The notes beneath the pieces are model-generated. The model saw nothing but the letters and a program-made list of their open reading frames with translations. It was not told where the DNA came from and ran no database searches. Below are positions 1,980 to 33,508 of a stretch of DNA of 64,000 bases, one piece after another; position 1 is the stretch's first letter; the number at the start of each line of letters is the position of its first letter. Source of the DNA: an uncultured Methylocystaceae bacterium (GTDB taxonomy: Bacteria; Pseudomonadota; Alphaproteobacteria; Rhizobiales; Beijerinckiaceae); assembly GCA_903870245.1 (NCBI GenBank), contig CAIQCB010000043.1, forward strand, positions 1-64,000, given 5' to 3'. A program made the translations under genes and the position numbers.

Positions 1980-2030
1980 TAGACAATAAATCAGCTTGTG
2001 CGCCGGCGTCACGTGACGGAAACTTTCGGC

Positions 2031-3128: not shown

Positions 3129-3202
3129 TTTGCTCTCCTGATCGAAAACCGGGACGAATCACTAAATACGCGGGGAGGCGAAAGTCAGGCTAAAACGTTT
3201 TC

Positions 3203-3652
3203 CTAACCGCTCAGAGCCGCCTTCACCGCCGAACTGGCCTTGGCGAAATCCATGCGGCCGGTGAATTTCGCCTTGAGCGCGGCGACGACCTTGCCCATGT
3301 CCTTGATCGAAGCTGCGCCAACTTCGGCAATTGCCGTTCTAACCGCCTCGGCGACCTCCGCCTCCGTGAGTTGCTGCGGCAGATAGGCTGAGATGACGGC
3401 GATCTCGCCCTTCTCCTTGTCGGCCAGTTCCTGACGACCGGCCTTCTCATAGATATCCACAGACTCCTGACGGCTTTTGATCATCTTCTGCAGCAGGGCG
3501 AGAATATCGTCTTCGGACAGGGACTTTCCGGCGCCTCGGGCTTCGATGTCCTTGTCCTTGAGCGCGGCGTTGATCAGCCTCAGGGCGTCTACCCTGGCGC
3601 GGTCGCCAGCCTTCATGGCGTCTTTGAGGTCCTGGGTGATCTTCTCGCGCAT
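3203..3652 (-). CDS. GatB/YqeY domain protein
   Basis: 149 aa, the standard length of the YqeY family. The fold is an N-terminal helical domain (residues 1-90) followed by the small three-helix GatB/YqeY tail (about 95-147). The family resembles the tRNA-binding tail of the GatB amidotransferase subunit, but its stand-alone function is not established. It is divergent from carA with only 63 bp between the starts, a neighbourhood common in Rhizobiales, so the two genes probably share a promoter region. Confidence 0.92.
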   Translation of the reverse strand: MREKITQDLKDAMKAGDRARVDALRLINAALKDKDIEARGAGKSLSEDDILALLQKMIKSRQESVDIYEKAGRQELADKEKGEIAVISAYLPQQLTEAEVAEAVRTAIAEVGAASIKDMGKVVAALKAKFTGRMDFAKASSAVKAALSG

Positions 3653-3715
3653 TAGATTTCCAATTCGGGGTCGGATGGATTAAATCCAGATAAGGAACAG
3701 GCAATAGAGCGGAAC

Positions 3716-4930: not shown

Positions 4931-4974
4931 CTATCGCCCGGCGTCGTCGCGCCAGGTAAACGCCGGCCGGACCA

Positions 4975-5850
4975 ATGCTTCGCTCAATCGCGACCCTCGC
5001 CTTTGCCTTTTTCGCCGCAGCGGCTGTTGCGCTGATCGGGCGGCCGGTCCTGCGCACGGCCATCGTCGCCGCGTGGAACGATCCGGCGAGTTTGCCTGCC
5101 CTGTCGATCGATCCGCGGATTCATCATGAAGCCGCCGCCCGCCCTTGCGCCGAACGGATTGCCGATCTCCTGCCGAAGGCGATGGCGCAGATCGAAAGCG
5201 CGCATAGCCGCCCCTTCAGCAAATCGCCACGAATTGGCGTTTACGCTTCTTATCGCACATACGCCCGAGCCAATGGTCTGGGCGACGCCGGGATCGCCGG
5301 CGTCAGCCGCGCTGGCTGGGCCCTGCTCTCGCCGACGCTCTGCGAAGATGAACATGACCGACTTGCCGGCGTCCTTACTCATGAACTCTCGCATCTCCAT
5401 TTCTTCGGCTGGCGATCCCGCAATGCGGCGCGTCCACCCCCCTGGTTCACAGAGGGTCTGGCCGTCGCCGCTTCCGGCGGCGGCGGCGCGGAGGGCGTTG
5501 ACGACGACGAAGCGCGACTGGCGCTGCGCGCGGACATACGCGTGATCCTCGACGAAGCCGCATGGACTGACTTTTCCGCCATTCGATTTACGAGAGAGCC
5601 CGCTTGCGTCGCGCCCTGCGATCTCTGGACCTATCGCCAGCGTCTCGCCTTCCGGCAGGCAGGGCTGTTCATTTCATGGATGCGGGCGCGCAATCCGGAA
5701 AAATTCACGCTTTTGTTGCGCCGGCTCGAACAGGGCGAGATATTCGACGGCGCCTTCGATGAAATATTCGGCGAAACGCCAAAAAGACTCTGGCGATTCT
5801 TTATTGATGACGTCGCCCGCGTACAACCTGCAAGTCACTTGCCAGAATGA
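4975..5850 (+). CDS. Putative exported zinc metallopeptidase (HExxH, gluzincin-like)
   Basis: 291 aa with a hydrophobic N-terminus (residues 4-25) that could be a signal anchor. Residues 136-140 read HELSH, the HExxH zinc-binding helix, and WFTEGLA places a likely third ligand, Glu160, 20 residues later. This spacing is typical of the peptidase MA-like gluzincin clan. An actual peptidase activity is an inference from these residues. The gene follows carA by 44 bp, and its end overlaps the convergent lipoprotein gene by 16 bp. No closer family name can be given. Confidence 0.75.
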   Translation: MLRSIATLAFAFFAAAAVALIGRPVLRTAIVAAWNDPASLPALSIDPRIHHEAAARPCAERIADLLPKAMAQIESAHSRPFSKSPRIGVYASYRTYARANGLGDAGIAGVSRAGWALLSPTLCEDEHDRLAGVLTHELSHLHFFGWRSRNAARPPPWFTEGLAVAASGGGGAEGVDDDEARLALRADIRVILDEAAWTDFSAIRFTREPACVAPCDLWTYRQRLAFRQAGLFISWMRARNPEKFTLLLRRLEQGEIFDGAFDEIFGETPKRLWRFFIDDVARVQPASHLPE

Positions 5851-6575
5851 ATACTGACGCCGCCATTCAATTTTTTCGGTAATTTTTTAGCCTCTACGCC
5901 GGAAACCTCCGCTCTGCGGGCGACGGCTTCCCCGCCCGCATCGTTTCCAGGGGAATTTTTGTGGGAATTTCTGCAGGCCGCCTCATCGAGAGGAGTTACG
6001 GAATCCGCGAGGTCAAATTCGCGAACATCGACATTCTCATCAAAAAGCACCCAGCCGATTTCGGCGGTCGGATATAAGTAGATATCGACAGTCGTCGACG
6101 CGTCTGGCGGTGGGTGCGACAGACAGATCGCGCGTCCCTTGCGTTGCAAGCGATATGAGTCAACTCCCCTTTCTTCTGTTTCGCCGTCCTCTGTATTTAT
6201 GAGCGTGTTCATTTGACTCTGGAATTTTCGAATCCGCTCAAGTTCCTTGGAGGCAAATTCAAAAATCGAAAGATTATCCACCGCCAGTCCGGCGCGTTGG
6301 ATGGCCACGATATCCTCAGGCCGCTTGACTCTGCGCAGCTGGAAGAGGCCGCTCGTCACCTCGCGACCGGACGGCTGCATGCGGATCGACAACTGGAGAT
6401 CGTCAAGCATTGGCCCCATCCATTCGGGGGCGTTGATAGCAATCCGCACCTGTGACGGCTCCAGAGTCGCCAGATCGATCTTGAGGAGTTTCCAGATCGT
6501 TTGCAGCGATGCTCCATTACAGGCGGCAAGGAACAGGAAAACGAAAAGCGCAAGTGAAAAACGCGCGGCTATCAT
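5835..6575 (-). CDS. Putative lipoprotein of unknown function
   Basis: 246 aa. The N-terminus (MIAARFSLALFVFLFLAAC) is a textbook lipoprotein signal with lipobox LAAC and acceptor Cys19. The rest is soluble, with no recognisable domain. A central segment (residues 50-130) of alternating hydrophobic residues could be a beta domain. The C-terminal ~35 residues, after about residue 210, look disordered and basic. I cannot assign a function. It converges on the metallopeptidase-like gene with a 16-bp overlap. Confidence 0.65.
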   Translation of the reverse strand: MIAARFSLALFVFLFLAACNGASLQTIWKLLKIDLATLEPSQVRIAINAPEWMGPMLDDLQLSIRMQPSGREVTSGLFQLRRVKRPEDIVAIQRAGLAVDNLSIFEFASKELERIRKFQSQMNTLINTEDGETEERGVDSYRLQRKGRAICLSHPPPDASTTVDIYLYPTAEIGWVLFDENVDVREFDLADSVTPLDEAACRNSHKNSPGNDAGGEAVARRAEVSGVEAKKLPKKLNGGVSIHSGK

Positions 6576-6676
6576 GGGTTGCGGTCTCCGGAGAGAAGTC
6601 CTGATCGAAGACTTTCGCGCCGTCGAATTTCAACGTCAGCGCGATTTTTTTTTGCTTCACGGACGAACGCTTACGA

Positions 6677-7387
6677 TCAGTATCCGAAGCGATAACTAAC
6701 GCCTGCCGTGATCAGGCCTTCGGCGCTCAACTGCCGCACGCTTACGAGCGGCGTCCCGACCGGCGTTGTTCTGCCAAAGTTGCCTGTCATAGCGCTTCGC
6801 GCCTCGACATTGACGTTCCAGCGATCATTGACGGCATATTCGATGCCGACGCCCAACGTCGGTCCCACAAATATGACATTTTGTTTGGTTGCGCCGTAAA
6901 TCGAACTCAACTTGTTCTGCGACGAGGCGATGTTCAGGCCGCCAGTCACATAGAGGAGAACGGGATCGAATGCGTAACCGACGCGGCCGCGCACAGACCC
7001 TTGCACGCCGACATGGCTATAGCCATTGATCACTCTTCCGACGGCAAAAGTTGGAACTGTGGTGTTGGCTGACGCGCTCGCGCCGTTGATGTCGCCAAGC
7101 AAACCTGCGACAAAATCACCAAAACGCCAGTCGTAACCAATATGCGCGCCGCCGGCTAAGCCGCCGCCATCGCCCTTTGGACTCGCGTAACGAAAATTGG
7201 TTGGCGCGTAATAGGCGTCGGTCATGCTTGTAAAGCCGAGGTAGCCAGCCTGAACGCCTGCATAAAGCCCCGTGAAAAGCGGTTTCGGCGGCGCCGGAAG
7301 CGGCGCGGATTTACGTGACGGCAGATCAGCGGCGATAGCGGCTGTTGCAGTGAATAACGCTGTTACAACGGTAGATTGGAATTTCAT
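6677..7387 (-). CDS. Outer-membrane beta-barrel protein (Omp25/31-like porin family)
   Basis: 236 aa. A signal peptide (residues 1-19, ending AIAAD) is followed by a proline-rich linker (LPSRKSAPLPAPPKP) typical of Rhizobiales Omp25/Omp31-type proteins. Then come alternating amphipathic strands (GLYAGVQAGYLGF, HIGYDWRFGDF, GRVGYAFDPVLLYVTGG, GVGIEYAVNDRWNVNVEAR). The last residues, SYRFGY, form the C-terminal aromatic signature recognised by the BAM complex. An eight-stranded barrel is likely; any transport specificity is unknown. Confidence 0.88.
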   Translation of the reverse strand: MKFQSTVVTALFTATAAIAADLPSRKSAPLPAPPKPLFTGLYAGVQAGYLGFTSMTDAYYAPTNFRYASPKGDGGGLAGGAHIGYDWRFGDFVAGLLGDINGASASANTTVPTFAVGRVINGYSHVGVQGSVRGRVGYAFDPVLLYVTGGLNIASSQNKLSSIYGATKQNVIFVGPTLGVGIEYAVNDRWNVNVEARSAMTGNFGRTTPVGTPLVSVRQLSAEGLITAGVSYRFGY

Positions 7388-7712
7388 TTGCTGTCTCCAA
7401 ACAGTGTTAACAGTTTCGACTGCGCGGAACGCATGGCTTCCACGCTGACAGTCGGAGGATTTACGGACGTCGTTGCGATTCTTGTCAGGAGGGGGATCGA
7501 ACGGGTTTCGTAACGCGCAGCCCCTAAAGTGGAGGAAGGCATATCGAGCAATTTAATAGACCGTTTTGCGCGATACTTTTAATGTTTGACATGAATTTTT
7601 TAATTTGTCAACGTATGTCAACAGACTATGGTTAATGGCAAATATTTCCCCGGACGGCAGCGTGTAACGGACAAACAGACCGGCACAGGGTCATTCAGGA
7701 AAAATACGGAAG
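7388..7712. promoter_or_regulatory. AT-rich intergenic region with a phased TTGACA/TGTCAA operator-like array
   Basis: This 325-bp region separates the divergent omp and DUF2975 genes. TTGACA lies at 7586-7591, TGTCAA (its inverse) at 7606-7611, and a second TGTCAA at 7616-7621. The starts are 20 and 10 bp apart, so all three half-sites face the same side of the helix. This looks like a binding site for a dimeric regulator, perhaps the HTH protein encoded at 8356, but that link is inference. No sure -10 box was assigned. Confidence 0.4.
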
Positions 7713-8354
7713 ATGCGCCGCTCAGATGCGGCGAACGCCATTCAGGGAGAAGAGCGCTTGGCTTTTAAACCTGCCAATGAAAATCTGATTGGCGCCGACG
7801 ATGAGCGCCTTTCGGCATTGCGCAGGCGCATCGGCTGGATTTGTCACATCTTGCGTTTTGGTGCGCCGATCACTTTTATCTGGGGTGTCAGCGAAGATGT
7901 TATAAACGCCGCCGACACGGCGGCGTTATCGAAAAGCGTCGCCTATCTCTTCGGAGAAAATGTCGTGCAACCCATCGCGGACTGGCAGCGTCTTGCACTT
8001 TTCGCCTGCTCGCTGCCGTCTACAATGGCTCATTTGGCCCTGGCATATAATGCATGGCTTCTTTTTTCCGGCTATCTGGCGGGGCGAATCTTCACGGTTG
8101 ACGCTGCCCGGCTGATTCAGCGTTGCGGCGTTTCCGGCATTGCCAGCGTCATTCTTAATCTGCTGATGCGGCCGCTCGTTGTGCCGATTCTCGCGGCGAC
8201 GCGGCCGGCCGGGGCTCAGTTGGCGGTTTCTTCCATGCCTTATTTAGGCTCAGGCGATCTTCACTCTTTCATCTTTTACCTTGCCCTGATCGGACTTGCG
8301 CATATACAAAAAGTCGCTGCCGAACTTTACAGCGAAAACGGCCAGATCGTCTGA
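7713..8354 (+). CDS. DUF2975 membrane protein
   Basis: 213 aa with about four hydrophobic segments (roughly residues 45-66, 92-118, 138-165 and 182-200). It ends in the family-typical short cytoplasmic tail (E-N-G-Q-I-V). DUF2975 proteins are of unknown function and are usually encoded directly before a small Cro/CI-like regulator, as here, where the stop is one base before the next ATG. The pair probably works as a membrane sensor plus regulator; that role is inference. An operator-like repeat lies about 90 bp upstream. Confidence 0.8.
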   Translation: MRRSDAANAIQGEERLAFKPANENLIGADDERLSALRRRIGWICHILRFGAPITFIWGVSEDVINAADTAALSKSVAYLFGENVVQPIADWQRLALFACSLPSTMAHLALAYNAWLLFSGYLAGRIFTVDAARLIQRCGVSGIASVILNLLMRPLVVPILAATRPAGAQLAVSSMPYLGSGDLHSFIFYLALIGLAHIQKVAAELYSENGQIV

Positions 8355-8355
8355 C

Positions 8356-8619
8356 ATGCCGATAATCGTCAATCTCGACGTCATGATGGCGCGGCGCAAG
8401 ATGCGCTCCCGCGACCTTGCGGCTTTGATCGGCATCGCCGAACAAAACGTCAGCCTGCTGAAGTCGGGAAAAGTGAAAGGCGTGCGCTTCGATACGCTTG
8501 AAAAAATATGCGAAGCGCTTGACTGTCAGCCGGGCGACATTCTCGAATATCGCCCTGAGGAACAGGAAGATGCACCGGCTGTTGCGCCCCTCACGCAACG
8601 CGCGCGACGCAGGGCCTAG
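8356..8619 (+). CDS. Small Cro/CI-type HTH transcriptional regulator (YozG-like)
   Basis: 87 aa. It opens with PIIVNLDVMMARRKM, characteristic of the small HTH regulators paired with DUF2975 proteins. The helix-turn-helix lies at residues 18-45 (LAALIGIAEQNVSLLKSGK). The following conserved stretch FDTLEKICEALDCQPGDILEY is the usual HTH_26 motif. A basic tail (RARRRA) follows. Translation is probably coupled to the DUF2975 gene, since only one base separates stop and start. It probably autoregulates from the repeats at 7586-7621. Confidence 0.88.
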   Translation: MPIIVNLDVMMARRKMRSRDLAALIGIAEQNVSLLKSGKVKGVRFDTLEKICEALDCQPGDILEYRPEEQEDAPAVAPLTQRARRRA

Positions 8620-8625
8620 CGCCGC

Positions 8626-9336
8626 CTACTTCAGGAATACATAGATATCGACATCGACACTGGCGTCGTCGCCGTTGAAATCGCTAAGATATTCCTCGAC
8701 GATGAGGTCTTTGGTGTCGAGACCCTTCTCGTCGAGATAGGCCGCAATGGCCTCATAGGTCGCCTCGATTTCGTCATAGGCGCCGCGATGCTGGAATTTC
8801 AGCGCCTTGCCGGAAGGCGAAGAACCGACCTCGACGCCGTTGGCGAACTTCGCCTTGCCCTCTGGCGCGGCGGCAAGCGGCAGCATCGCCTCGAAACTGA
8901 AACCTGAGTCGTCGGTCTTGGTGAAGACCGTCACCGGACGACCATTGACCGGCAAGCCGGCCTTCGCGGCGGCGTCTTTAAGCTTCTTGAGCGCCTCGGG
9001 GATCAGCTTTTCGGCTTCGTCCCATTTGCCTTGTCCCTTGAGAGCAATGGCTGGCCGCGCCTCGACCGCGACAGCCTGGCTCATGACGCTGGCGGCGGGA
9101 TTGTCGGACCGGGCGGCTGTTGAGGAGTCCGTTTTTTCCTCTCTGGCGCCAAGGGCAGGGCTCATTGAGCCGGTCGGGGCGATGGCGTTCGTCGGCGGGC
9201 CCGCGTCATCCGTGCTGTCGGCAGGGATCGAACGTCGCAGCGCGATCAGGGCTACGGCGCCCATAATCGCCGCGACGATCAACATGACGCGCCAATAACG
9301 ACTGAGGCCATCAATCAGACCGGGTTGCTCTTCCAT
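8626..9336 (-). CDS. Membrane-anchored protein with GyrI-like effector-binding domain
   Basis: 236 aa from the ATG at 9336; an upstream in-frame start would add 21 residues with no family match. Residues ~14-32 are a single membrane segment. A low-complexity linker follows, rich in Ala, Ser, Pro and Thr. The C-terminal ~130 residues match the GyrI-like (AraC effector-binding) fold, ending D-I-Y-V-F-L-K. Such domains bind small hydrophobic or cationic ligands. The membrane anchor suggests that the domain faces the periplasm; that is inference. It converges on the HTH gene with only 6 bp between the stops. Confidence 0.75.
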   Translation of the reverse strand: MEEQPGLIDGLSRYWRVMLIVAAIMGAVALIALRRSIPADSTDDAGPPTNAIAPTGSMSPALGAREEKTDSSTAARSDNPAASVMSQAVAVEARPAIALKGQGKWDEAEKLIPEALKKLKDAAAKAGLPVNGRPVTVFTKTDDSGFSFEAMLPLAAAPEGKAKFANGVEVGSSPSGKALKFQHRGAYDEIEATYEAIAAYLDEKGLDTKDLIVEEYLSDFNGDDASVDVDIYVFLK

Positions 9337-9499
9337 GAATTTTTTCCTAGAAGCCTGAGATAAGGGCCAGAATTTCATGCCTGCGCCAGAGGCCGCCATT
9401 CAACGTCGCGCGCCGAAGGCTCCACCCCTTTTTTCCTTTAATGGTATATATCGGCCCGGAACAGTTCCAGCCTCGACCCATCAATCGCCGCGTGGCCCC

Positions 9500-10360
9500 A
9501 TGACCCATCCGCTCGATAGACGACCGATCTTGCGCATGAATGGCGCCGGAAATGAAATTCTGGTGCTGGACCTGCGCGGTATTGATCACGACCTCAGCCC
9601 GGCCGAGGCGCGCGCTATCGCCGTCCAGCCCGATCTGCGCTTCGATCAACTTATGGTGATAAAAGATCCCCATCGTCCAGGCTATGACGCTTTCTTGCAA
9701 ATCTATAATGTCGACGGTTCGTTGTCCGGCGCATGTGGCAACGGTACGCGGTGCGTCGCCTGGACATTGGCGCGCGAGGGCAAGAACCATCTTCGGCTTG
9801 AAACCGTCTCGGGACGCATCGAGACGCGGCGTGAGGGCGAAGCGCTTTTCACCGTCGATATGGGTCCGCCCCGTCTCGATTGGAAAGAGATCCCGCTTGC
9901 GTGCGCCGCTGACACAAACGCGGTCTCGCTCGACCCGCCTGTCCCGGGCGCGCCTGCGCAATTCAGCGCCGTTAACATGGGCAATCCGCACGCCGTCTTT
10001 TTTGTTGGTGACGTTGCAAGCGTCGACCTTGAAAGTCTGGGATCTGTTATTGAAAACCATCCGCTCTTTCCAAACCGGGTAAATGTCTCCTTCGCCCAGG
10101 TCTGTGCGCCGGACGATGTCCTGCTTCGGGTTTGGGAGCGCGGCGCAGGAGCAACGCAGGCCTGTGGCACGGCCGCATGCGCGACTCTTGTCGCCGGAGC
10201 CCGGAGAGGTCTGACACATCGACGCGCCCGATTGTGTCTTCCGGGCGGAAAGTTGACTATCGACTGGCGCGACGACAATCATGTGACAATGACCGGTCCC
10301 ATTGAATTCGAGTTCGAAACACAGCTCGACGCAACTATTTTCGCTGGTCACGGCGCATGA
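9500..10360 (+). CDS. dapF: Diaminopimelate epimerase
   Basis: 286 aa from the ATG at 9500; the open frame extends to 9377, but the extra residues have no family match. It interconverts LL- and meso-diaminopimelate for lysine and peptidoglycan synthesis. The two catalytic cysteines are Cys79 in GACGNG and Cys222 in QACGTA, and the substrate-binding ERGAG precedes the latter. The N-terminal motif is MNGAGNEI rather than HGxGNDF; I believe this is common in Rhizobiales. The stop overlaps the mtaB start (ATGA), so the two are translationally coupled. Confidence 0.95.
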   Translation: MTHPLDRRPILRMNGAGNEILVLDLRGIDHDLSPAEARAIAVQPDLRFDQLMVIKDPHRPGYDAFLQIYNVDGSLSGACGNGTRCVAWTLAREGKNHLRLETVSGRIETRREGEALFTVDMGPPRLDWKEIPLACAADTNAVSLDPPVPGAPAQFSAVNMGNPHAVFFVGDVASVDLESLGSVIENHPLFPNRVNVSFAQVCAPDDVLLRVWERGAGATQACGTAACATLVAGARRGLTHRRARLCLPGGKLTIDWRDDNHVTMTGPIEFEFETQLDATIFAGHGA

Positions 10361-11586
10361 CAACTGACGCCATGGTAGTGGCCACAAGGCCAGAAGACGC
10401 CAGACCAGAAGACGCCGCGCCACGGGAAATAAGGTCGGAAGTCGAAGTCGTCACCTTCGGCTGCCGCCTCAACAGCGTGGACTCGGAAGTCCTGGCTCAA
10501 GCGTATCAAGGACATGAGCAAACGGTTATTGTCAACACCTGCGCGGTGACTACGGAAGCGACGCGACAGGCGCGACAGGCGATTCGCCGTCTCCATCGGG
10601 AACGGCCTGAAGCCCGGATCGTTGTCGCCGGCTGCGCGGCGCGCATCGATCCGAAAGATTTTTCCTCGCTCGGTGGCGTGGAACAGGTCTTGACCGAACA
10701 CCCCCCGGCGCGAGCGCGTATTGCGACAGAGGGCACACGCGGATACCTGGCCGTGCAGAATGGCTGCGATCATGATTGCACATTTTGCGTTATCCCTCTC
10801 GGTCGCGGAGCGTCGCGCTCCGCCGGGCCAGAGGATGTGATTTCACAGGCGCGAAATCTTATCGCCTCCGGAAAACGGGAAATCGTGCTGACCGGGGTCG
10901 ACCTGACAAGCTATGAAGCCGGCGGGCTCACGCTCGGCGCATTGGTGCGGTTGCTGCTGCGCGAGTGTCCCGACCTTCCGCGTCTCAGGCTCTCCTCCAT
11001 CGACTGCGTGGAGGCTGACGCCGATCTCATCGCCGCCTTCGCCGAAGAAGAGCGTTTGTGTCCACATTTGCATTTGTCCCTGCAATCTGGCGACGATCTG
11101 ATCCTGAAACGCATGAAGCGACGACATCTGCGCGCCGACGCCATCGGCTTTTGCAAGATGATCCGCGCCGTGCGCCCGGATATTGTTTTCGGAGCCGATT
11201 TGATCGTGGGTTTTCCGACAGAATCAGAGGAGATGTTTCAGCAAAGCTGCGCCCTGCTCGATGACTGCGGATTGACCTATATTCACGTCTTTCCATTCTC
11301 CGCACGGCCCGGCGCGCCCGCAGCCCGCATGCCCCAGGTTGCGCGCGGGATCGTAAAGCAACGCGGCGAGCGTCTACGCAACCTCGCTGACAAAACGCTG
11401 GCGCGCCATCTCGACGGGAAAATCGGCTCAACCCTGAGACTATTGACAGAAAAGGGCGGAACGGCGCGCGCCAGTGACTTCACGCTCGCATTGACTCCCG
11501 AGATTGCCGCCGGACGCATGATCGACGGCCGCGTGACGGGACATAACGGTCGAGCTCTTGAGGTTGCGCTCATATCCGGTTCATGA
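10357..11586 (+). CDS. mtaB: tRNA t6A37 methylthiotransferase MtaB
   Basis: 409 aa. This radical-SAM enzyme converts t6A37 to ms2t6A37 in tRNAs reading ANN codons. The N-terminal MTTase domain has Cys36 (FGCRLNS), Cys62 and Cys93, ligands of the auxiliary 4Fe-4S cluster. The radical-SAM motif is Cys137-x3-Cys141-x2-Cys144. The C-terminal ~60 residues have a TRAM-like position. The overlapping start with dapF is typical of alphaproteobacteria. Confidence 0.95.
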   Translation: MTTDAMVVATRPEDARPEDAAPREIRSEVEVVTFGCRLNSVDSEVLAQAYQGHEQTVIVNTCAVTTEATRQARQAIRRLHRERPEARIVVAGCAARIDPKDFSSLGGVEQVLTEHPPARARIATEGTRGYLAVQNGCDHDCTFCVIPLGRGASRSAGPEDVISQARNLIASGKREIVLTGVDLTSYEAGGLTLGALVRLLLRECPDLPRLRLSSIDCVEADADLIAAFAEEERLCPHLHLSLQSGDDLILKRMKRRHLRADAIGFCKMIRAVRPDIVFGADLIVGFPTESEEMFQQSCALLDDCGLTYIHVFPFSARPGAPAARMPQVARGIVKQRGERLRNLADKTLARHLDGKIGSTLRLLTEKGGTARASDFTLALTPEIAAGRMIDGRVTGHNGRALEVALISGS

Positions 11587-25812: not shown

Positions 25813-27165
25813 TTATTCCGCTTCGGCTTCCGCCGTCTCGTTTTCCCTGTCGAGTTTGGGCGTGCGTTTAAAGGTCGATTTTCGGCCGCGAAGCGTTTGC
25901 AGAATTTTCGCGCCATTGGCGAAGGCCAGATAGATCATCAGCGGCGGCACCGAGGCCATGGTCTTAACATAGTCTGCGAGGGAGCCGCGCGCGAGAGCGA
26001 AATAGGGCGGCATCGTAAAGCCGATCACCACCAGCGCCGTCATGATCGCGACGAGTTGCACCACGCCCGAATAGGCGTCGAGAGAGCCGTGGAGGAATAC
26101 GCCGATCACGCCAGCGACAATGCCGATGGCCGCCGCTGGAAAGAAAATCTGATGCGCAATAAGCGAGATAGCTGTGAGACGTTTTTCCAGCGGCCAGTGG
26201 GAGTTCCAGATCGGTAATATGGTTTTCTGAGCCACCTGGACAAAGCCATTGGACCAGCGGCGTTGCTGACGTCGGTAATCCCGTATTTCTTCCGGAACCT
26301 GACCGGGAATTGGCGGCTCCGATACAAACAGGCCGTGCCAGTCGCGCAATTCGGCGCGCACGGTGAGATCGAGATCTTCGGTCAGCGAATAATCCGACCA
26401 GCCGCCGGCGTCCTCCACCGTCGCGCGCCGCCAGATGCCGCCGGTGCCGTTGAACTGGAAGAGCCAGCCGGCAAGGGCGCGGCTGCGCTGCTCAACAAGA
26501 TAATGGCCGTCCTGCACCAGCCCCTGCGCTCGCGTCAGCCAGTTGGTCCTGTAGTTCTGGAACTCGCAGCGCGACTGAACGAAACCGGCGCGCGGGTCGC
26601 TCAAAAACAAAGGCACGGTGCGCTTCAGCCATTCCGGCGGCGGCCGAAAGTCAGCGTCGAGCATGGCGATAAAGGGTTCGTCAGTGATCGAGAGGCCATG
26701 CGCGCACGCCCCGGCCTTGAAACCGGAGCGGTCGGTGCGGCGAACATGATCGATAAGGGCGCCCGCGGCTCTGAGTTCGACAATCACGGCGGCGGCCCGT
26801 TCAGTCGTTTCGTCGGTCGAGTCGTCGAGGAGCTGGATGCGCAGCTTGTCTTTCGGCCAGTCGATCTGGGCGACGCAGCGTAACGCCTGCTCGGTGACCA
26901 TAGGTTCGTTGAACACAGGAATCTGGAGCAGAACCCTTGGCAAATCGGCGTCGGCGGGAACCGGGGACTGCGGATCCCGCGCGCCCCGCAGAAGGTCGTA
27001 AAAATAACGGCCGATGATAATCAGCAGGCCGAGGCCGATCGCCACAAGCGTGAGAACGGAGAGATAGACGACCGCATCGATCAGAAACCGGAGGATTGCG
27101 AGCAACAGCCTACCCTTCTTGTTCAGGCGCCGATGGCGGAGCGGCGCGGACGCGCACCCTGCCAT
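25813..27165 (-). CDS. GT2 glycosyltransferase, processive CslA/cellulose-synthase-like
   Basis: 450 aa. An N-terminal membrane helix (residues ~20-58) is followed by a GT2 catalytic domain: QIPVFNE, the first Asp pair LLDDS (residue ~114), DAD at 170-172, TED at 262-264 and QQRRW at 300-304. Three or more C-terminal helices follow (about 315-425). This full D,D,D,QxxRW set is typical of glycosyltransferases that make polymers or transfer sugar to lipids at the inner membrane. It is the last gene of the seven-gene lipid operon and overlaps the GT21 gene by up to 56 bp; the true start may be somewhat further in. Confidence 0.88.
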   Translation of the reverse strand: MAGCASAPLRHRRLNKKGRLLLAILRFLIDAVVYLSVLTLVAIGLGLLIIIGRYFYDLLRGARDPQSPVPADADLPRVLLQIPVFNEPMVTEQALRCVAQIDWPKDKLRIQLLDDSTDETTERAAAVIVELRAAGALIDHVRRTDRSGFKAGACAHGLSITDEPFIAMLDADFRPPPEWLKRTVPLFLSDPRAGFVQSRCEFQNYRTNWLTRAQGLVQDGHYLVEQRSRALAGWLFQFNGTGGIWRRATVEDAGGWSDYSLTEDLDLTVRAELRDWHGLFVSEPPIPGQVPEEIRDYRRQQRRWSNGFVQVAQKTILPIWNSHWPLEKRLTAISLIAHQIFFPAAAIGIVAGVIGVFLHGSLDAYSGVVQLVAIMTALVVIGFTMPPYFALARGSLADYVKTMASVPPLMIYLAFANGAKILQTLRGRKSTFKRTPKLDRENETAEAEAE

Positions 27166-28267
27166 TCGCCCAGACGACTTCTTCGGTTATCCAGGCGTTC
27201 ACCCAGACGACCATGACGAGCGCCTCGCGCACGAGGAGGACCAGCGGCGCGGCGAGTGATAATTGCCATCCTTTGGCTATGGAAAGCAATGTCTCCGCCC
27301 CCAGCCAGAGGCCAAAGGTCGACACGACGGCCGTCGCCGGCGCCATTCCGGCCAGAGGGGCCGCCAACCCTGCGGCGACAACCGCCGGAAGCGCCTGACA
27401 GATCGGTTCGGCCAGGAAAGAAAGCAATTCTTCCTTGCGGCGGATGACGCTCCAGCGCATTTGACGCTGATATACATCAATAAAACTGCGCCGACCCAGG
27501 ATCTGGCGGACGGGACGGTGGGAAAAGACGGCCTTCTTGCCAATACGACTCATTGCCTTGGCCATGGCGTTGTCCTCGCCGACTGTGTGGTCGATCGCCG
27601 AAAAACCCCCGGCGCGCTCGAAATCCGAGCGTCTGAACAACATGATCTTTCCGACTCCATGACCCTGACCCAGCGCCGAGGCAAGGTAGAGCATTCGCGC
27701 ATGGGAGTTATTGATGATCGCCGATTCTACCTGCGCAGCAAAATTATCGAGCCGATCGCAATATGGAATGCCGCAAACGAGGCCGACGTCGTCATTGAGT
27801 TGGCGCATATGTTCGGCGAGAGCGTCGGGTTCAAGCAAAACATTGGCGTCCTTCATCAGGATCGTGTCGTTCGCGGCCTGTGTGAAGGGTGCGAAGAGAT
27901 TATCGACTTTCGGGCTGGCGGCGAATTTCGCTGTAGAGTGCAGGATTCGTGACGGAACCTCGGGGCGCCGGGCAAAGATCGCCCGGATATGGTCGAGCGC
28001 GGGCGAAGCGGTCTCCTGCGCCGCCGCCGTCACGTCAATCTGCGGATAGTTTTGTGTGAATGCCGACTCCTGAGTCTCATCGAAGCCGTCCTCCATCGTT
28101 TTCAACGGCAAGACGATGGACACCGGCGGTTGATCCATGCGCCGCGCGCGCCTTTCGGCGAGCCATGGCTGAACGAGGGCGGCGGCGACCGACAGCAGCA
28201 GCAGCGCAATCGAGACGCACCAGAACGCAGCGGCGATCCAGCCGATGAGAGCATCTCCCGCGCTCAC
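27110..28267 (-). CDS. GT21 glycosyltransferase (ceramide glucosyltransferase / HpnI-like)
   Basis: 385 aa. There is one N-terminal membrane helix (residues 8-36). The catalytic domain follows the ceramide glucosyltransferase pattern: VSIVLPLK, KDAN (139-142), GED (230-232) and RQMRW (268-272, the (Q/R)xxRW motif). C-terminal hydrophobic segments lie at ~285-365. The family moves glucose or a related sugar to ceramide-like lipids or, as HpnI, to hopanoids. No hopanoid genes are nearby, so a glycolipid carrying the chain handled by this operon is more likely. Overlaps the SDR gene by 4 bp. Confidence 0.85.
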   Translation of the reverse strand: MSAGDALIGWIAAAFWCVSIALLLLSVAAALVQPWLAERRARRMDQPPVSIVLPLKTMEDGFDETQESAFTQNYPQIDVTAAAQETASPALDHIRAIFARRPEVPSRILHSTAKFAASPKVDNLFAPFTQAANDTILMKDANVLLEPDALAEHMRQLNDDVGLVCGIPYCDRLDNFAAQVESAIINNSHARMLYLASALGQGHGVGKIMLFRRSDFERAGGFSAIDHTVGEDNAMAKAMSRIGKKAVFSHRPVRQILGRRSFIDVYQRQMRWSVIRRKEELLSFLAEPICQALPAVVAAGLAAPLAGMAPATAVVSTFGLWLGAETLLSIAKGWQLSLAAPLVLLVREALVMVVWVNAWITEEVVWANGRVRVRAAPPSAPEQEG

Positions 28268-29055
28268 GGACTTTCGCCGCGCTCGCGGGTTTCCAGCACT
28301 GCGACATCGAAACGCCGCATGACGCTATCGACAACGCCCGACGGTAGAAAGCTGAACAGCCGCATCGCGGCATACATGTAATAGGGGAAAGCGATGACTC
28401 CGCGCCGGCGATCCAGTCCGCGCTTGACGATCCGCGCCGCCTCCGAATCGCTGATCGCGCCCGGTTGCCAGGCCTTGAGCGGCGCGTTCATCGGGGTTTT
28501 GACGAAGCCCGGCACAATCAGGCTGACCGCAACGCCGTAGGGCGCAAGCGATCCGCGCAGACAATCCGCCCACATGTGAACGGCGGATTTCGCTGCGCAG
28601 TAGGCGGGCGAGTAGGGCAGAGCGCGCACGCCGGCCATGGACCCGACAATGGCGATCTGTCCCCGGCGCCGACCGCTCATCGCCGGAATCAGAGGCTCCA
28701 CGGTGTTGAAAACCCCGGCGACATTGATCGCCATCATCGCGCGCACAGCCTCGGGCGTCTCCTGAATCTGCCCCGACGAGAGTCCGGTGGCGACGCCGGC
28801 GTTGGCGACAAGAATATCAATAGGCCCCCGCCCGTCCGCCGCCATCAGCAGCTGCGCCATCTTTTCCCGGTTCCGCACATCGGCGACATGAGTTTCGACA
28901 TTTTTTGCGCCGGCCTCGCGGCAGGCTTGCGCGGATTTCTCCAAACGCTCGGCGTCACGGCCAAAAAGCACGAGATCAGCGCCGTCCGCCGCATAGGCCG
29001 CCGCCAGAGCGCGACCGATGCCGCTCGATGCGCCGGTGATCAGAACCCGCTTCAT
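28264..29055 (-). CDS. SDR-family ketoreductase in the lipid operon
   Basis: 263 aa, classical short-chain dehydrogenase. Cofactor motif TGASSGIG (residues 7-14), NAG (85-87), catalytic Ser139, Tyr152 and Lys156 (YCAAK). The R33-D34 pair after the second strand favours NADP(H). The hydrophobic C-terminal tail (about 225-250, with FPYYMYAAMRLFSFLP) resembles 3-ketosphinganine-reductase/DltE-like SDRs and suggests membrane association. In this operon it is best read as the step reducing the keto product of the neighbouring ketosynthase. Confidence 0.88.
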   Translation of the reverse strand: MKRVLITGASSGIGRALAAAYAADGADLVLFGRDAERLEKSAQACREAGAKNVETHVADVRNREKMAQLLMAADGRGPIDILVANAGVATGLSSGQIQETPEAVRAMMAINVAGVFNTVEPLIPAMSGRRRGQIAIVGSMAGVRALPYSPAYCAAKSAVHMWADCLRGSLAPYGVAVSLIVPGFVKTPMNAPLKAWQPGAISDSEAARIVKRGLDRRRGVIAFPYYMYAAMRLFSFLPSGVVDSVMRRFDVAVLETRERGESP

Positions 29056-29465
29056 GCGCCGCCCCGGGCGGCGCGCGGACGCAACGTCGCTTCGCCGATA
29101 ACGCCCGGCAATCGCGCTGAACCATGCGCAAAAAGGCGAACGAACACTTCCTCGTCGGAAGCGCGAAGCACCCGACCCGACAGGATGATTTTCTCGCCGC
29201 GCAGAATCGGCTGCACGAATTTGCCGGACAGGGTTACGATGGCGAGATCGCTGCGCCAGTTGGCGAGCATCGGCTCGAAGGCGGCGAGCATTTTCATGCC
29301 ATGAACCGGCGGCGCCGCAAAACCGACGCCCGCCGCCAGCGCCTCATCAAGATGCAGCGGGTTGGCGTCGCCCGAGACTTCCGCATAGCGCGCGAGCGCA
29401 GGCGCGTCGAAGGGGCCGATAATGGTTTCCGGCAGTTTATCGCCGATAGCGGCAAGCGCGCTCAT
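29052..29465 (-). CDS. MaoC-like hydroxyacyl dehydratase/hydratase
   Basis: 137 aa, single hot-dog fold. The hydratase motif is complete: Asp33 and His38 in SGDANPLHLD, then PPVHGM, as in R-specific enoyl hydratases and HadB-type dehydratases. It would interconvert 3-hydroxyacyl and 2-enoyl thioesters carried by the operon's ACP. It overlaps both neighbours by 4 bp. Confidence 0.88.
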   Translation of the reverse strand: MSALAAIGDKLPETIIGPFDAPALARYAEVSGDANPLHLDEALAAGVGFAAPPVHGMKMLAAFEPMLANWRSDLAIVTLSGKFVQPILRGEKIILSGRVLRASDEEVFVRLFAHGSARLPGVIGEATLRPRAARGGA

Positions 29466-29908
29466 GACGCGCCTCCCAAGGCCGTTTCCCGACCGTCAGC
29501 GCCTTTTGAACCGTCAACGCCTTTTGAGAATGCGTCGCGCGGCACGAGCCGCAGCATGGTCTCGATCCTGCCGACGGGCGCGCCGTCCGTCGTCGCGATC
29601 ACCGCATCGGCGATCAGGCGCGGCGGCGTCTCTTCACGGCGGAGCGTCACCGTGAGATCGTAGCTTTCGCCGGCGGTCAACGATGTTTCATAGGCGAACG
29701 CCTGAGACTCATGCACTGGCACGACAGCAAGCGTTTCGCAGACCTCGGACACCACTTTGGACAAAGCGGGCTCGGAGAGCCAGACCGCAGGATAGGCGAG
29801 CGGAACGCGCCCGTCGTCGGCGCCGATTTCGCGCGCATAGGCCCCCGCGCGAACGGGGTCGACTGTCAGGCGCAGGGGGCCAACAGCCAGGGGGACGTTA
29901 ATTTGCAT
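29462..29908 (-). CDS. Hot-dog-fold partner protein lacking the dehydratase motif (HadA-like?)
   Basis: 148 aa. It looks like a degenerate MaoC/FAS1-type hot-dog domain: YAREIGADDGRVPLAYP sits where the active-site helix would be, but the Asp-x4-His pair is absent. Placed directly before a catalytically complete MaoC protein with a 4-bp overlap, it is probably the non-catalytic subunit of a heterodimeric dehydratase, by analogy with mycobacterial HadA-HadB. It overlaps the ketosynthase end by 11 bp. The family assignment is tentative. Confidence 0.65.
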   Translation of the reverse strand: MQINVPLAVGPLRLTVDPVRAGAYAREIGADDGRVPLAYPAVWLSEPALSKVVSEVCETLAVVPVHESQAFAYETSLTAGESYDLTVTLRREETPPRLIADAVIATTDGAPVGRIETMLRLVPRDAFSKGVDGSKGADGRETALGGAS

Positions 29909-31133
29909 GGGTGATGATTAGCACGGCGTTGATGCCGCCAAAAGCGAATGAGTTCGACATGACGGCCTTGATTTCGCATTGTTTCGCAACGTTGGGCACG
30001 GCGTTGATGGGGCAACGCGGGTCCGGCTCAAGAAAATTGATCGTCGGCGGCGCGATCTGTTCACGAAGCGCCGATATGGCGACGGACAGTTCGAGCCCCC
30101 CGCTGGCGCCCAGCGCATGACCATGGATCGGCTTGGTCGAGGAAACCGGCACCTGCGCGCCGTAATCGCCAAAAACACGCAGGAGCGCCTCCGACTCGGT
30201 AATGTCATTGGCGTGAGTCGCCGTGCCATGCGCGTTAACGTAACCGATCTCGCGCGCGGTCAGACCCGCATCCTCCAGCGCCTGCGCGATTGCCCTCGAC
30301 GCGCCGTCAAGGTCCGGGCGGACGGGATCTTTGGCGTCGCTGGTCGTGCCGTAGCCGGCGAGTTCGCACAACGGCGCATGACCGCGCGCCTGAGCTGAGT
30401 CATAGGTCTCCAGCACGAAAATCGCAGCGCCCTCGCCCAGCGTCATGCCATTGCGGCCGCTGGAAAAAGGTCGGCACAGACCGGGCGTCAACACCCGCAA
30501 GCTTTCCCACGCCCGCATCGAGGAATTTATGATGCAGGCTTCAGCGCCGCCGACAATAGCCTTGTCGACCATCCCCGAGCGGACCATCTGCATGCCGACG
30601 CCCAGCGCCTGCGTCGCCGACGAGCAGGCGCTACCGATCGAAAAGGTCGGTCCCAGGCAAGAAAAGCGCATGCCGAGCGTCGCCGGCGCGGCGCTTGAAA
30701 TGAGTTTCGGCACGCTCAGCATCGCCGGGCGCTGACCCTCGACGTAATAATGATAAATGCCATCCTCGATCGTCGTCATGCCGCCAATGCCGGTGCCGAT
30801 GACCACGGCGGCTCCCGGGCCAGCGACGCCATTGCGGTCAAAACCGGCCTGGGCCATCGCCTCGTCGGCGGCGATTACGGCGAATTGGGAAAAACGATCG
30901 CAGAAGGGCAACACCTCGCGCTCGATGTGCGCGGCGGGATCAAATTCCGGCGCCTGGGCAGCAAACTTGATGCGTCCATCATAGGGGCGCTCGGTTTTCA
31001 GCGGCCGGATTTGCCCGACGCCGTCACGGGCGGCGGTCCAGAGACGGTCAGCGCCAAAACCTGCGGCGCTGACGACGCCCATCCCGGATACGACGACGCG
31101 GCGTCCCGCAGCTCGCCCGCGCGAGACGGTCAT
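29898..31133 (-). CDS. Beta-ketoacyl-ACP synthase (FabF/KAS II family)
   Basis: 411 aa. The thiolase-fold condensing enzyme has an intact triad: Cys170 in GSACSSAT, His302 in NAHGTATHAND and His337 in the KPIHGHALGASGG block, with Lys334. GSAC-SS replaces the usual TAC-ATG around the nucleophile, showing it is not the housekeeping FabF. It should extend an acyl chain on the dedicated ACP, whose gene ends one base before this start. Confidence 0.92.
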   Translation of the reverse strand: MTVSRGRAAGRRVVVSGMGVVSAAGFGADRLWTAARDGVGQIRPLKTERPYDGRIKFAAQAPEFDPAAHIEREVLPFCDRFSQFAVIAADEAMAQAGFDRNGVAGPGAAVVIGTGIGGMTTIEDGIYHYYVEGQRPAMLSVPKLISSAAPATLGMRFSCLGPTFSIGSACSSATQALGVGMQMVRSGMVDKAIVGGAEACIINSSMRAWESLRVLTPGLCRPFSSGRNGMTLGEGAAIFVLETYDSAQARGHAPLCELAGYGTTSDAKDPVRPDLDGASRAIAQALEDAGLTAREIGYVNAHGTATHANDITESEALLRVFGDYGAQVPVSSTKPIHGHALGASGGLELSVAISALREQIAPPTINFLEPDPRCPINAVPNVAKQCEIKAVMSNSFAFGGINAVLIITHAN

Positions 31134-31397
31134 TTACTGCTTCTCGCGTTCTTTCTGGATGTGATCCGCCAGAGCTTCCATGAGGCTCTTGACGTCCTTG
31201 GCCTCCTGAAGGGAGCCGTCCATCGGGATGTAGACGTTGAATTTTTCCTCCAGGGCGGTGAGGATCATCACAATGTCCACCGATTTCAGGTCGAGACTTT
31301 CGATCGTCGCATCGGGAGTGATCTTGGAGATGTCGATCATCCCTTCCGTAGCGATAACCTCTTTAATTTGTTCAATGAGTTCGGCCGTATCGGTCAC
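31134..31397 (-). CDS. Dedicated acyl carrier protein
   Basis: 87 aa, acidic four-helix ACP. The phosphopantetheine Ser is Ser39, in LDLKSVDIV, which differs from the DSLD of the housekeeping AcpP and marks a specialised carrier. It is first in the operon and directly abuts the ketosynthase gene. A promoter must lie in 31398-31645, shared with the divergent mutA. Confidence 0.9.
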   Translation of the reverse strand: MTDTAELIEQIKEVIATEGMIDISKITPDATIESLDLKSVDIVMILTALEEKFNVYIPMDGSLQEAKDVKSLMEALADHIQKEREKQ

Positions 31398-31645
31398 TCA
31401 AGCCTCCGTTCAGATGAGCCCGCCTTGACTATGCGACGGGCGCGTCGCCGTCGCCGCGCAACGCGCTCTGGCCCGCCACTTGCGGCGGCGCGCATAACAG
31501 GATGCGCCGGCGCCGGTCGGTTCGACTTGGTTAAGGGGTTTAGGGGGGAAAAGCAAAGGGCGCGGCCTTGTGATGCGGATTTCATGTGGCCGAAGACGGC
31601 GCTTCGTGCGAAAAGGCGCGAGAAACAAGGGGGATTGAGATAATT

Positions 31646-33508
31646 ATGACAGCGCATGAGACAGCCATCGCCGGAGTTTTTCCACAGCCCCGGGAAGAGC
31701 AATGGCGAAAACTCGTCGATCGGGCCCTTAAGGGCGCGTCTTTCGAGACGCTGGTTTCAAGGGCTTATGGCGCTGTCGCCGTTGCGCCGATCTATCCTCG
31801 GGCCGCCGCTGCGCCGAAAACTCTGCGCCGAACGCCCGGCCGCTGGTCGATCCTCGGCCGGGTCGATTATGCGCCGCCTGAACCCGCCAACCGCCTGGCC
31901 CTCGACGATCTCGAAGGCGGCGCCGATGGCCTTCATCTTGTCTTCGCCGGCTCTCAGGGCGCGTGGGGCGGCGGCCTCGTTGATGATGACGAAGCGGCGT
32001 TGACCAAGGTCTTTGATAACATTCGGCTGGATTACGGCATCCCGGTCATCATCGAGGCTTCCCCGCGCGCCCCCCGCGCAGCGTCGACGGTGATCCGTCT
32101 GCTCGACAGCCAGCATATCGATCCCTCAATCACGCGCATCGCTTTCGGCCTCGATCCTCTGGGCTTGCAGGCGCTGCACGGCTTTGCGGCCGGTCCATGG
32201 CCGGAGGTCGCCAAAGCCTTCGCGGCGCAAGCAAAGGAGATTCTGCGGGCCGGTTTTTCCATCGGCGCGGTCGCGGCCGACGCCCGGGTGGTTCATGCCG
32301 CCGGCGGGTCTGAGACGCAGGAGTTGGCGTTTGCGCTCTCCGCCGCCGTCGCCTATTTGCGCGCCCTCGCCGATCATGGCGTCGATATCGAGACCGCGCG
32401 GTCATCGATATCTTTCCGACTCGCCGCCGACGCCGACGAATTTCTGGGCGTCGCCAAATTCCGGGCCATTCGCCGGCTATGGGCCCGGGTCGAGGAAGCC
32501 TGCGGGCTGACGCCGAAACCGACTCTGATCTCTGCCGAAACCGCCTGGCGGATGATGTCCCGGCGCGATCCATGGAATAATATTTTGCGCGGAACCCTGG
32601 CGACCTTCTCGGCGGCCGTTGGCGGCGCCGATACGGTGACGGTCCTGCCCTTCACGCTTCCGTTAGGCGTGCCGGATCCTTTCGCCCGACGCCTCGCCCG
32701 CGACACTCAACTCGTGTTGCAGGACGAATCGCATATCGAAGCCGTCGACGATCCTGCTGCGGGGTCGGGCGGCTTTGAGGCGTTGACACAGGCCCTTTGC
32801 GAAGAAGCCTGGGCGGCGTTCCAGAAAATCGAGGCCACAGGCGGACTCGCCGCGGCGCTCGAAAAGGGAGTCTTCCAGGGCGAAGTCGCTGAAATCGCCG
32901 GCTTGCGCGCCAAAAACATTGCCCGTGCAAAAGAGAAAATCACAGGCGCCAACCAGTTCCCCGACATCGCCGAGAAGCCTCTCGACGTACTCGCTCCCGC
33001 CGCCGCCTCAAACGATGCTTTCGCCCCGCCGGCTGAAGGGCTGAAGACTCCGCCGCTTGCGCCTCGTCGGCTCGCCGAGCCCTTCGAGCGCCTGCGCGAC
33101 CTTTCCGACGCCATGCTGGCGAAAACAGCTCAACGGCCGAAAGTCTTCCTGGCCAACATTGGCCCGGTCGCCGCCTTCACCACTCGCGCCAACTTCGCCA
33201 AAAATTTCTTCGAGGCTGGCGGCGTTGAAGCCGTGTTCGGTCCCGAAGCCGAAACGACAGCGCAAATCCTGGAAGCCTTCCGCGCCTCCGGCGCGAAACT
33301 TGCGTGCCTATGCTCGACAGATCTCATTTACGTCGACGCCGCAGAGTCATTGGCGCTTGCTCTGAAGGGCGCGGGCAGCGAGCTCTACCTCGCCGGGCGT
33401 CCCGGCGATCTGGAGGAGACATTGCGCAAAGCCGGCGTCGCCGAGTTCATATATGCGGGTTGCGACATGCACAATGTGCTGCAAAGAGCTCTGGAGGCGG
33501 CGGGTTGA
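31646..33508 (+). CDS. mutA: Methylmalonyl-CoA mutase small (beta) subunit
   Basis: 620 aa from the ATG at 31646, preceded by a purine-rich GGGGGATTGAGA; the open frame begins at a GTG at 31586. It is the non-catalytic partner in the B12-dependent conversion of methylmalonyl-CoA to succinyl-CoA. The TIM-barrel-like domain spans residues ~20-430 and the degenerate cobalamin-binding domain ~490-620. The catalytic subunit gene mutB is not adjacent; a small secreted protein follows instead, overlapping the stop. Confidence 0.93.
   Translation: MTAHETAIAGVFPQPREEQWRKLVDRALKGASFETLVSRAYGAVAVAPIYPRAAAAPKTLRRTPGRWSILGRVDYAPPEPANRLALDDLEGGADGLHLVFAGSQGAWGGGLVDDDEAALTKVFDNIRLDYGIPVIIEASPRAPRAASTVIRLLDSQHIDPSITRIAFGLDPLGLQALHGFAAGPWPEVAKAFAAQAKEILRAGFSIGAVAADARVVHAAGGSETQELAFALSAAVAYLRALADHGVDIETARSSISFRLAADADEFLGVAKFRAIRRLWARVEEACGLTPKPTLISAETAWRMMSRRDPWNNILRGTLATFSAAVGGADTVTVLPFTLPLGVPDPFARRLARDTQLVLQDESHIEAVDDPAAGSGGFEALTQALCEEAWAAFQKIEATGGLAAALEKGVFQGEVAEIAGLRAKNIARAKEKITGANQFPDIAEKPLDVLAPAAASNDAFAPPAEGLKTPPLAPRRLAEPFERLRDLSDAMLAKTAQRPKVFLANIGPVAAFTTRANFAKNFFEAGGVEAVFGPEAETTAQILEAFRASGAKLACLCSTDLIYVDAAESLALALKGAGSELYLAGRPGDLEETLRKAGVAEFIYAGCDMHNVLQRALEAAG

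Follow-up and report, generated by a model that had tools for sequence, protein, structure and literature searches.

The sphingolipid pathway of Caulobacter and Escherichia coli B, as described in the excerpts available to us of three papers (PMC9386255, PMC11324152, PMC11087976), is encoded by spt, acpR, aasR, cerR and cerS, and AasR loads the acyl carrier protein (ACP) AcpR with the acyl chain that feeds serine palmitoyltransferase (SPT) (PMC9386255, same excerpt). In Pseudomonas fluorescens, according to the part consulted of another report (PMC12134224), the SgaAB system consists of a type I polyketide synthase (PKS) feeding an alpha-oxoamine synthase (AOS) with SPT activity, and SgaC is a KDSR-like short-chain dehydrogenase/reductase (SDR). 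The subject of the present study is an operon of seven open reading frames (ORFs), ACP, beta-ketoacyl-ACP synthase (KAS), HadA, HadB, SDR, GT21 and GT2 in this order, which occupies positions 25813-31397 on the minus strand of a 64,000-nucleotide stretch ("the window": positions 1 to 64,000 of contig CAIQCB010000043.1, hereafter C43, assembly GCA_903870245.1) from an uncultured Methylocystaceae bacterium. We consider it rather probable that type II methanotrophs have a glycosphingolipid pathway of which this operon provides the chain-building and glycosylation half, its ACP-KAS-HadA-HadB cassette supplying an AOS.

This genome shares with the Caulobacter/E. coli B pathway an AOS, a ceramide synthase homologue and a dedicated ACP; it differs in lacking any AasR match and a canonical CerR, in having KAS-HadAB and an SDR instead, and in an AOS that comes from another clade. 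AasR gave no match in the genome at E 1e-15, the sole match to the NDUFA9-like CerR reached 75 bits over residues 4-201 of 323, and the window ACP scored at most 31 bits against E. coli AcpR and the AcpRs of the order (29.5 bits against the genome's own AcpP). Because AasR, AcpR and CerR all stayed below what we accept as a match, we do not assign the pathway to the Caulobacter type. The glycosyltransferases differ as well, being of the GT21/GT2 kind here and of the GT4 type (Sgt1/Sgt2) in Caulobacter, as stated in the consulted part of PMC6445935. The points in common with SgaAB are an AOS from the clade of AOSs adjacent to type I PKS/fatty acid synthase (FAS) genes, dedicated condensing enzymes, and an SDR as the likely keto reductase; unlike SgaAB, discrete ACP, KAS, HadA and HadB proteins replace the type I PKS, and a ceramide synthase, a desaturase and GT21/GT2 glycosyltransferases are present.

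The genome contains four strongly matching AOS genes and none of them is on C43, in agreement with the original prediction that the window holds no SPT. Two are HemA, one scores highest for bioF and lies beside a BioD-like gene (judged by eye), and the fourth, at 43.7-45.1 kb of another contig (C59), begins a run of an SPT-like AOS, a 403-aa protein without Pfam match, an FA_desaturase and an FA_hydroxylase. Over 381 aa this 403-aa protein shares 36% identity with E. coli BL21 YghO (E 2.7e-80), which is among the acyl-CoA N-acyltransferases for ceramide ('aca' gene; PMC9386255, excerpt), and we designate it ceramide synthase (CerS). The proposal that spt and cerR be sought elsewhere in the genome led to the SPT-like gene on C59 and to no canonical CerR. 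No type I PKS was found, the genome's KAS matches lying in frames of 411-441 aa, with two weak ones in frames of 421 and 505. PF08557, a domain of sphingolipid delta-4-desaturases, is present in the C59 desaturase (36.6 bits, cut-off 23). This delta-4-desaturase-type protein and the fatty-acid hydroxylase occupy C59:46340-48005 (locus L147, 12341-14006, plus strand), and the desaturase also stands beside AOS-CerS in loci L107 and L102 (labels beginning with L, G, f and g denote loci, genomes, families and genera of our comparison set).

We surveyed 397 genomes of the order, the HadA and CerS draws being taken as identical from their equal counts and shared handles. HadA is present in 27 of them and CerS in 90, the latter number including weak matches down to E 9e-4 (G350). 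CerS occurs in 23 of the 27 HadA+ genomes versus 67 of the 370 HadA-negative ones (odds ratio 26, p 1e-12); since the HadA+ genomes come from only six families, these counts are not independent and the p-values given here overstate independence, which weighs against our interpretation. The two genes lie at most 7.5 kb apart in 20 of the 23 genomes that have both. Of 25 genomes in the genus of our bacterium (its own included), 24 have HadA, always with CerS, and the remaining one (G022, 89% complete) has neither.

Our search for AasR and CerR covered 80 of 117 genomes, namely all 27 HadA+ genomes and 53 of the 67 HadA-negative CerS+ genomes (the other 14, and 23 further genomes of the genus, are outside this comparison). 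The thresholds were chosen here: AasR was scored as present where a match was full-length and reached 457 bits or more (39 of the 53), to which a 71%-identical fragment in G102 was added, and CerR on at least 121 bits, one partial match (G038) included. By this count AasR occurs in 2 of the 23 HadA+ CerS+ genomes versus 40 of the 53 HadA-negative CerS+ genomes (p 7e-8), and canonical CerR in 1 of 27 HadA+ versus 29 of those 53. Among the 27 HadA+ genomes, full-length AasR occurs in two, G074, to which we return below, and G061, where the cassette is unlinked to CerS and a separate contig carries AasR-CerR-CerS. As for the 13 HadA-negative CerS+ genomes without AasR, six have weak CerS matches only (at most 103 bits), three are metagenome-assembled genomes (MAGs) that are 67-86% complete, G091 has ACP, KAS and HadB-like genes beside CerS (L219), G229 has a type I PKS/FAS (L210), and G096 and G113 fit none of these cases. 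Other families of the order have the Caulobacter-type cluster, represented by L206, whose AasR was the one sought in this comparison; it comprises AasR, CerR, AcpR, SPT, a diacylglycerol-kinase-like gene, two LptF/G-like genes (one Pfam-confirmed) and CerS.

Gene neighbourhoods, read at flanked HadA+ loci that cover 20 of the 25 HadA+ genomes outside the genus, link the cassette to sphingolipid genes in other families. In L107 (G278, another genus of the family) and L102 (a Methylocapsa MAG), AOS-CerS-desaturase lies beside, and convergent with, ACP-KAS-HadA-HadB-SDR-(GT21)-GT2, the hydroxylase and GT21 being present in L107 only. The order CerS-ACP-KAS-HadA-HadB-SDR-GT21-GT2-GT2 recurs at five f50 loci (GT21 was not detected in L117); an SPT is nearby in four of them (L110, L114, L116 and L117), whereas the L108 stretch shows none, and two f49 loci have a colinear CerS-ACP-KAS-HadA-HadB. 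In f20, where nine of the 12 HadA+ genomes were read, SPT stands directly beside HadB in seven (L111, L113, L115, L119-L122) and about 1.5-1.6 kb from it in L125 and L126; the cassette separates SPT from CerS. The wider f20 cluster contains LptF/LptG-like permeases, which parallel LptF2/G2 of Caulobacter, together with a Gly_transf_sug protein, PgpA, DUF4833 and inositol-1-phosphate synthase (by Pfam, in L111 and L113); the gene set of f20/g26 (L111, L113 and others) points to a ceramide of the phosphoinositol type that has an export system of its own. Finally, a 6.6-kb contig (L212) has CerS-SDR-GT21-GT2-hydroxylase in a row.

The AOS phylogeny (without SgaB, and with five PKS/FAS-linked AOSs) separates the C59 AOS from canonical SPTs (100/99) and groups it (99/96) with AOSs whose genes adjoin a type I PKS/FAS gene in Pseudomonas, Caballeronia, Shinella, Sinorhizobium and G229, thus placing it in the PKS-associated clade; given the long BioF/HemA branches and the midpoint root, the two AOS groups are to be understood as sides of branches. 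Within this clade the cassette AOSs plus an Acidisoma AOS (99/98) are sister to the PKS group (92/89). The Pseudomonas, Caballeronia and Shinella neighbours are annotated as type I polyketide synthases, those of Sinorhizobium and G229 have type I PKS/FAS structures as matches, mycocerosic acid synthase among them, and no PKS is annotated within 10 kb of the Acidisoma AOS. The cassette-linked SPTs of f20 and f50 are 41-46% identical to E. coli SPT (four tested). As far as tree placement and identity indicate, the cassette is therefore paired with two AOS lineages, canonical SPT in f20 and f50 and the PKS-associated clade. L210 (G229, f16; positions 1-11540) deserves a separate mention: a type I PKS/FAS frame of more than 1800 aa, cut by the locus edge, lies directly upstream of the AOS. 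The locus also has CerS and an SDR that shares 41% identity with that of the window, and is a ceramide cluster of the same taxonomic order fed by a PKS.

The window SDR is 50-56% identical to other cassette SDRs, 41-44% to SDRs near CerS in L210 and L212, 34-36% to SDRs of the PKS-AOS clusters of Pseudomonas, S. meliloti and Shinella, 33% to that of the Acidisoma cluster, and 29% to the genome's own FabG. This ranking favours, without proving it, a keto-sphingoid reductase like SgaC (PMC12134224, the part consulted).

The enzymatic steps and the product that we infer would run as follows. The KAS would elongate an acyl chain on the dedicated ACP; to complete each cycle, either housekeeping FabG or the SDR would act as ketoreductase, HadAB as dehydratase, and a housekeeping enzyme as enoyl reductase. 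The acyl-ACP would then pass to the SPT-like AOS of C59, in place of the acyl-AcpR made by AasR in Caulobacter and E. coli B; we favour the AOS as acceptor because AasR feeds SPT in the known pathway. CerS would attach the amide chain, the SDR would reduce the 3-keto group instead of CerR, and the C59 desaturase and hydroxylase would modify the chains. GT21 would put the first sugar on the ceramide and GT2 one or more further sugars. A bolder version of this proposal, for which we see even chances, is that a portable type II FAS-like cassette replaced AasR at least twice (with canonical SPT in f20/f50 and with the PKS-associated AOS in type II methanotrophs and relatives), which would add a third way of making the long-chain base to AasR loading and type I PKS; in Methylocystis the products would be delta-4-desaturated glycosphingolipids.

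Several observations speak against the supply of an AOS by the cassette. The C59 AOS is only 32% identical to the proven E. coli SPT and no closer to it than HemA or BioF are (it scores 293 bits with SerpalmtaseBetaP, cut-off 500, and 332 with bioF), so that serine as its substrate is unproven. Operon and CerS/AOS run are on separate contigs in our genome, and in the 13 genomes of the genus that have HadA and CerS on one contig the distance is 40-80 kb in 11 and 168 and 929 kb in the other two. G074 holds both the cassette and AasR, 3.3 Mb apart, and eleven f35 genomes without canonical CerR have AasR and no cassette, which indicates that loss of CerR is not specific to the cassette. The four HadA+ genomes without CerS all belong to f42/g93, and in L123 and L124 (the two that were read of the four in f42) and L118 (f38) the cassette lies near PlsC and Frag1 genes without linked sphingolipid genes; the four-gene module is thus not exclusive to sphingolipids, and another lipid seems to use it in f42 and f38. 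L118 is, in addition, near CDP-alcohol transferases and an FGGY kinase. The word 'ceramide' is absent from the text examined of a study on the lipids of Methylosinus trichosporium OB3b (PMC9239053).

The most serious competitor is that the cassette makes the amide-linked chain for CerS (for instance a longer or 2-hydroxylated one) and not the long-chain base, the SPT-like enzyme taking acyl-CoA or housekeeping acyl-ACP. CerS directly precedes ACP within one gene run at those f49 and f50 loci that were read, and since this run holds CerS and not SPT, supply of the amide chain fits these loci as well; the fatty-acid hydroxylase found with CerS in our own genome points the same way. We nevertheless think this hypothesis unlikely, because by itself it leaves the missing AasR, which feeds SPT in Rhodobacteria (PMC9386255, excerpt), unexplained in 21 of the 23 HadA+ CerS+ genomes, and because SPT, not CerS, is directly beside HadB in seven of the nine f20 loci read. 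A more general hypothesis would make the cassette a portable elongation module used by several membrane-lipid pathways, sphingolipids being the commonest, with the link to AasR loss reflecting shared ancestry of a few families. The neighbours do differ between f1/f50, f20, f49, f42 and f38, and the HadA+ genomes belong to just six families of the order; the pairing of the cassette with two separate AOS lineages goes against this, as does a further family, f22, in which ACP, KAS and a HadB-like gene adjoin CerS in L219 without any AasR match, and we regard it as improbable. At L219 neither BLAST nor a profile detected any HadA similarity in the ORF that takes the HadA position, and for this reason we dropped it as a diverged HadA.

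The original prediction was of a specialised glycolipid in which the acyl chain is attached to a sugar. The specialised glycolipid and the hint at ceramide given by the GT21 are supported, in view of the association of HadA with CerS and SPT, and the direct attachment of the chain to sugar, in a glycolipid unrelated to sphingolipids, is probably wrong. HpnI-like enzymes can act on other lipids, and the cassettes of L118, L123 and L124 have no linked sphingolipid genes, as this view would expect; against it are the co-occurrence and linkage with CerS and SPT elsewhere, the SDR-GT21-GT2 series immediately after CerS in L212, and an operon in which a Pfam scan detected no acyltransferase domain, and we give it very little credence. 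It is more likely that the chain enters the sphingoid base or its amide.

With the supply of an AOS by the cassette as our preferred interpretation, the operon itself can be considered gene by gene (Table 1). All seven ORFs were located on one strand as predicted: KAS abuts ACP, HadA overlaps KAS by 11 bases, HadB overlaps HadA, SDR overlaps HadB and GT21 overlaps SDR by 4 bases each, and the GT2/GT21 overlap is 56 bases with the longest GT2 start. A scan for promoters and terminators did not rise above chance level.

Table 1. Genes of the operon, with window coordinates
Feature	Position	Strand	Support
Dedicated ACP, 87 aa, GTG start, serine motif LDLKSVD	31134..31397	-	PF00550, 28.8 bits
KAS (FabF-like), 411 aa	29898..31133	-	PF00109/PF02801 (ketoacyl-synt N+C)
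HadA-like non-catalytic hot-dog subunit of (3R)-hydroxyacyl-ACP dehydratase, 148 aa	29462..29908	-	profile and structure matches
HadB-like catalytic MaoC subunit, 137 aa	29052..29465	-	PF01575, 8e-12
SDR, candidate 3-keto-sphingoid or keto-ceramide reductase, 263 aa	28264..29055	-	PF00106, 1.6e-49
GT21, candidate ceramide glycosyltransferase, 385 aa, GTG start	27110..28267	-	PF13506, 2.8e-46
CslA/PgaC-like GT2, candidate second sugar transferase, 450 aa	25813..27165	-	PF13632/PF13641

The ACP is 47-75% identical to nine other cassette ACPs (69-191 bits). The KAS has the motifs ACSS and HGTATHAN (KPIHGH was spotted by eye), and cassette KAS proteins form a separate group in the tree; at 32% identity to the genome's own FabF and FabB (both assigned by eye from neighbouring genes) it is ruled out as a housekeeping enzyme. 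The reservation that KAS and SDR might be housekeeping paralogues is accordingly removed, the SDR sharing 29% identity with the genome's own FabG. A stand-alone KAS at C43:99039-100352 (L227, 9040-10353, minus strand) is 64% identical to the window KAS and falls in the cassette KAS clade; no ACP or dehydratase adjoins it, and it probably arose by duplication and then left the cassette.

For gene 3, Pfam and NCBIfam both gave no match. A profile of its relatives finds HtdX (9.5e-7) and, weakly, HadA (0.015) in the PDB, and the top structural match of its AlphaFold model (m243ab0eca042, predicted local distance difference test score 88) is HadA of Mycobacterium tuberculosis HadAB (E 1.6e-6), to which mycobacterial sequence identity is about 15%. 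Gene 4 resembles HadB-type structures (4rv2_B, 2e-10; 5zy8_B, 2.5e-9) and has the catalytic motifs D-x-NP-x-H at 33-38 and HGM at 55. The two would thus form a HadAB-type pair of a catalytic MaoC subunit and an adjacent non-catalytic hot-dog partner, and the structural match of gene 3 upholds the "dehydratase pair" first proposed. As in mycobacterial HadAB/HadBC, two hot-dog subunits are adjacent and one carries the catalytic D/H motif; the context of bacterial sphingolipids, and the low identity of HadA, set our pair apart. The absence of an enoyl reductase was also correctly noted, since Pfam and NCBIfam scans reveal none among the seven proteins. The GT21 scores 168.7 bits with the HpnI model TIGR03472 (cut-off 310), and we rejected it as the hopanoid enzyme HpnI on this score; the GT2 resembles CelA and PgaC, well under both cut-offs (CelA 107.8 bits, cut-off 699).

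In the alphaproteobacteria the acpXL cluster likewise combines a specialised ACP, a KAS and a dehydratase. Our operon differs from this lipid A very-long-chain cluster in having glycosyltransferases and an SDR, and its ACP reaches 29.7 bits with NF005079 (cut-off 83), which we take to be the AcpXL model; we therefore rejected the acpXL cluster, as the original prediction had done. The aryl polyene cluster was set aside on the gene content of the operon alone.

The fear that the gene order might be sporadic was not borne out. The full seven-gene order on one strand is kept at all 23 further loci of the genus, which puts the arrangement far beyond chance. Of 31 named loci, 24 keep it too, among them L083 of the cultured strain Methylocystis rosea SV97; the order is incomplete in seven, and five of these are short stretches (4.0-11.6 kb) ended by contig edges. 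The other two, not cut by contig ends, are L102, which lacks GT21, and L105, which lacks HadB, SDR and both glycosyltransferases. The named relatives (Methylocystis, Methylosinus, Methylocapsa, a Rhodoblastus MAG and other Beijerinckiaceae/Methylocystaceae) assign the window to a type II methanotroph of the Methylocystis kind. When HadA was sought beyond the order in 385 genomes of the class, our own genome and three weak matches (21-29 bits) were all that came up; no HadA relative was found in viral contigs, and plasmid searches with two HadA proteins gave no match.

Among the best matches listed in the open-access literature (at most 20 per search), none ties a KAS-HadAB cassette to sphingolipids and none concerns a ceramide of Methylocystis. 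AasR loading and type I PKS feeding being already published, the dissociated ACP-KAS-HadAB feeder would be a new variant of bacterial sphingolipid synthesis. Some Hyphomicrobiales have an SPT or SPT-like AOS and CerS, no detectable AasR, and a chain-building cassette instead, and this makes the origin of the acyl chain directly testable. Type II methanotrophs are environmentally important and have stacked internal membranes; our proposal predicts that their lipids include glycosphingolipids, which may contain a double bond of the sphingosine type, and supplies marker genes for this class.

Two minor points concern the surroundings of the operon and its glycosyltransferases. Identity across the 23 loci of the genus is 79-98% for ACP and 69-91% for GT2, and the flanks are more variable than the operon: among these loci, the window's downstream neighbours were not found at L041, L047 and L051, nor either flank at L052. 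The methylmalonyl-CoA mutase small subunit (window 31586-33508, plus strand) is nevertheless the divergent neighbour in 22 of the 23, which is probably synteny only; it was not seen there in L102 and L107, and it also adjoins the cassette in Methylosinus (L099, L101). A second GT21/HpnI-like gene of the same genome, at C44:8049-9188 (L143), scores 176 bits against the cut-off of 310 and has a GT4-type glycosyltransferase gene nearby.

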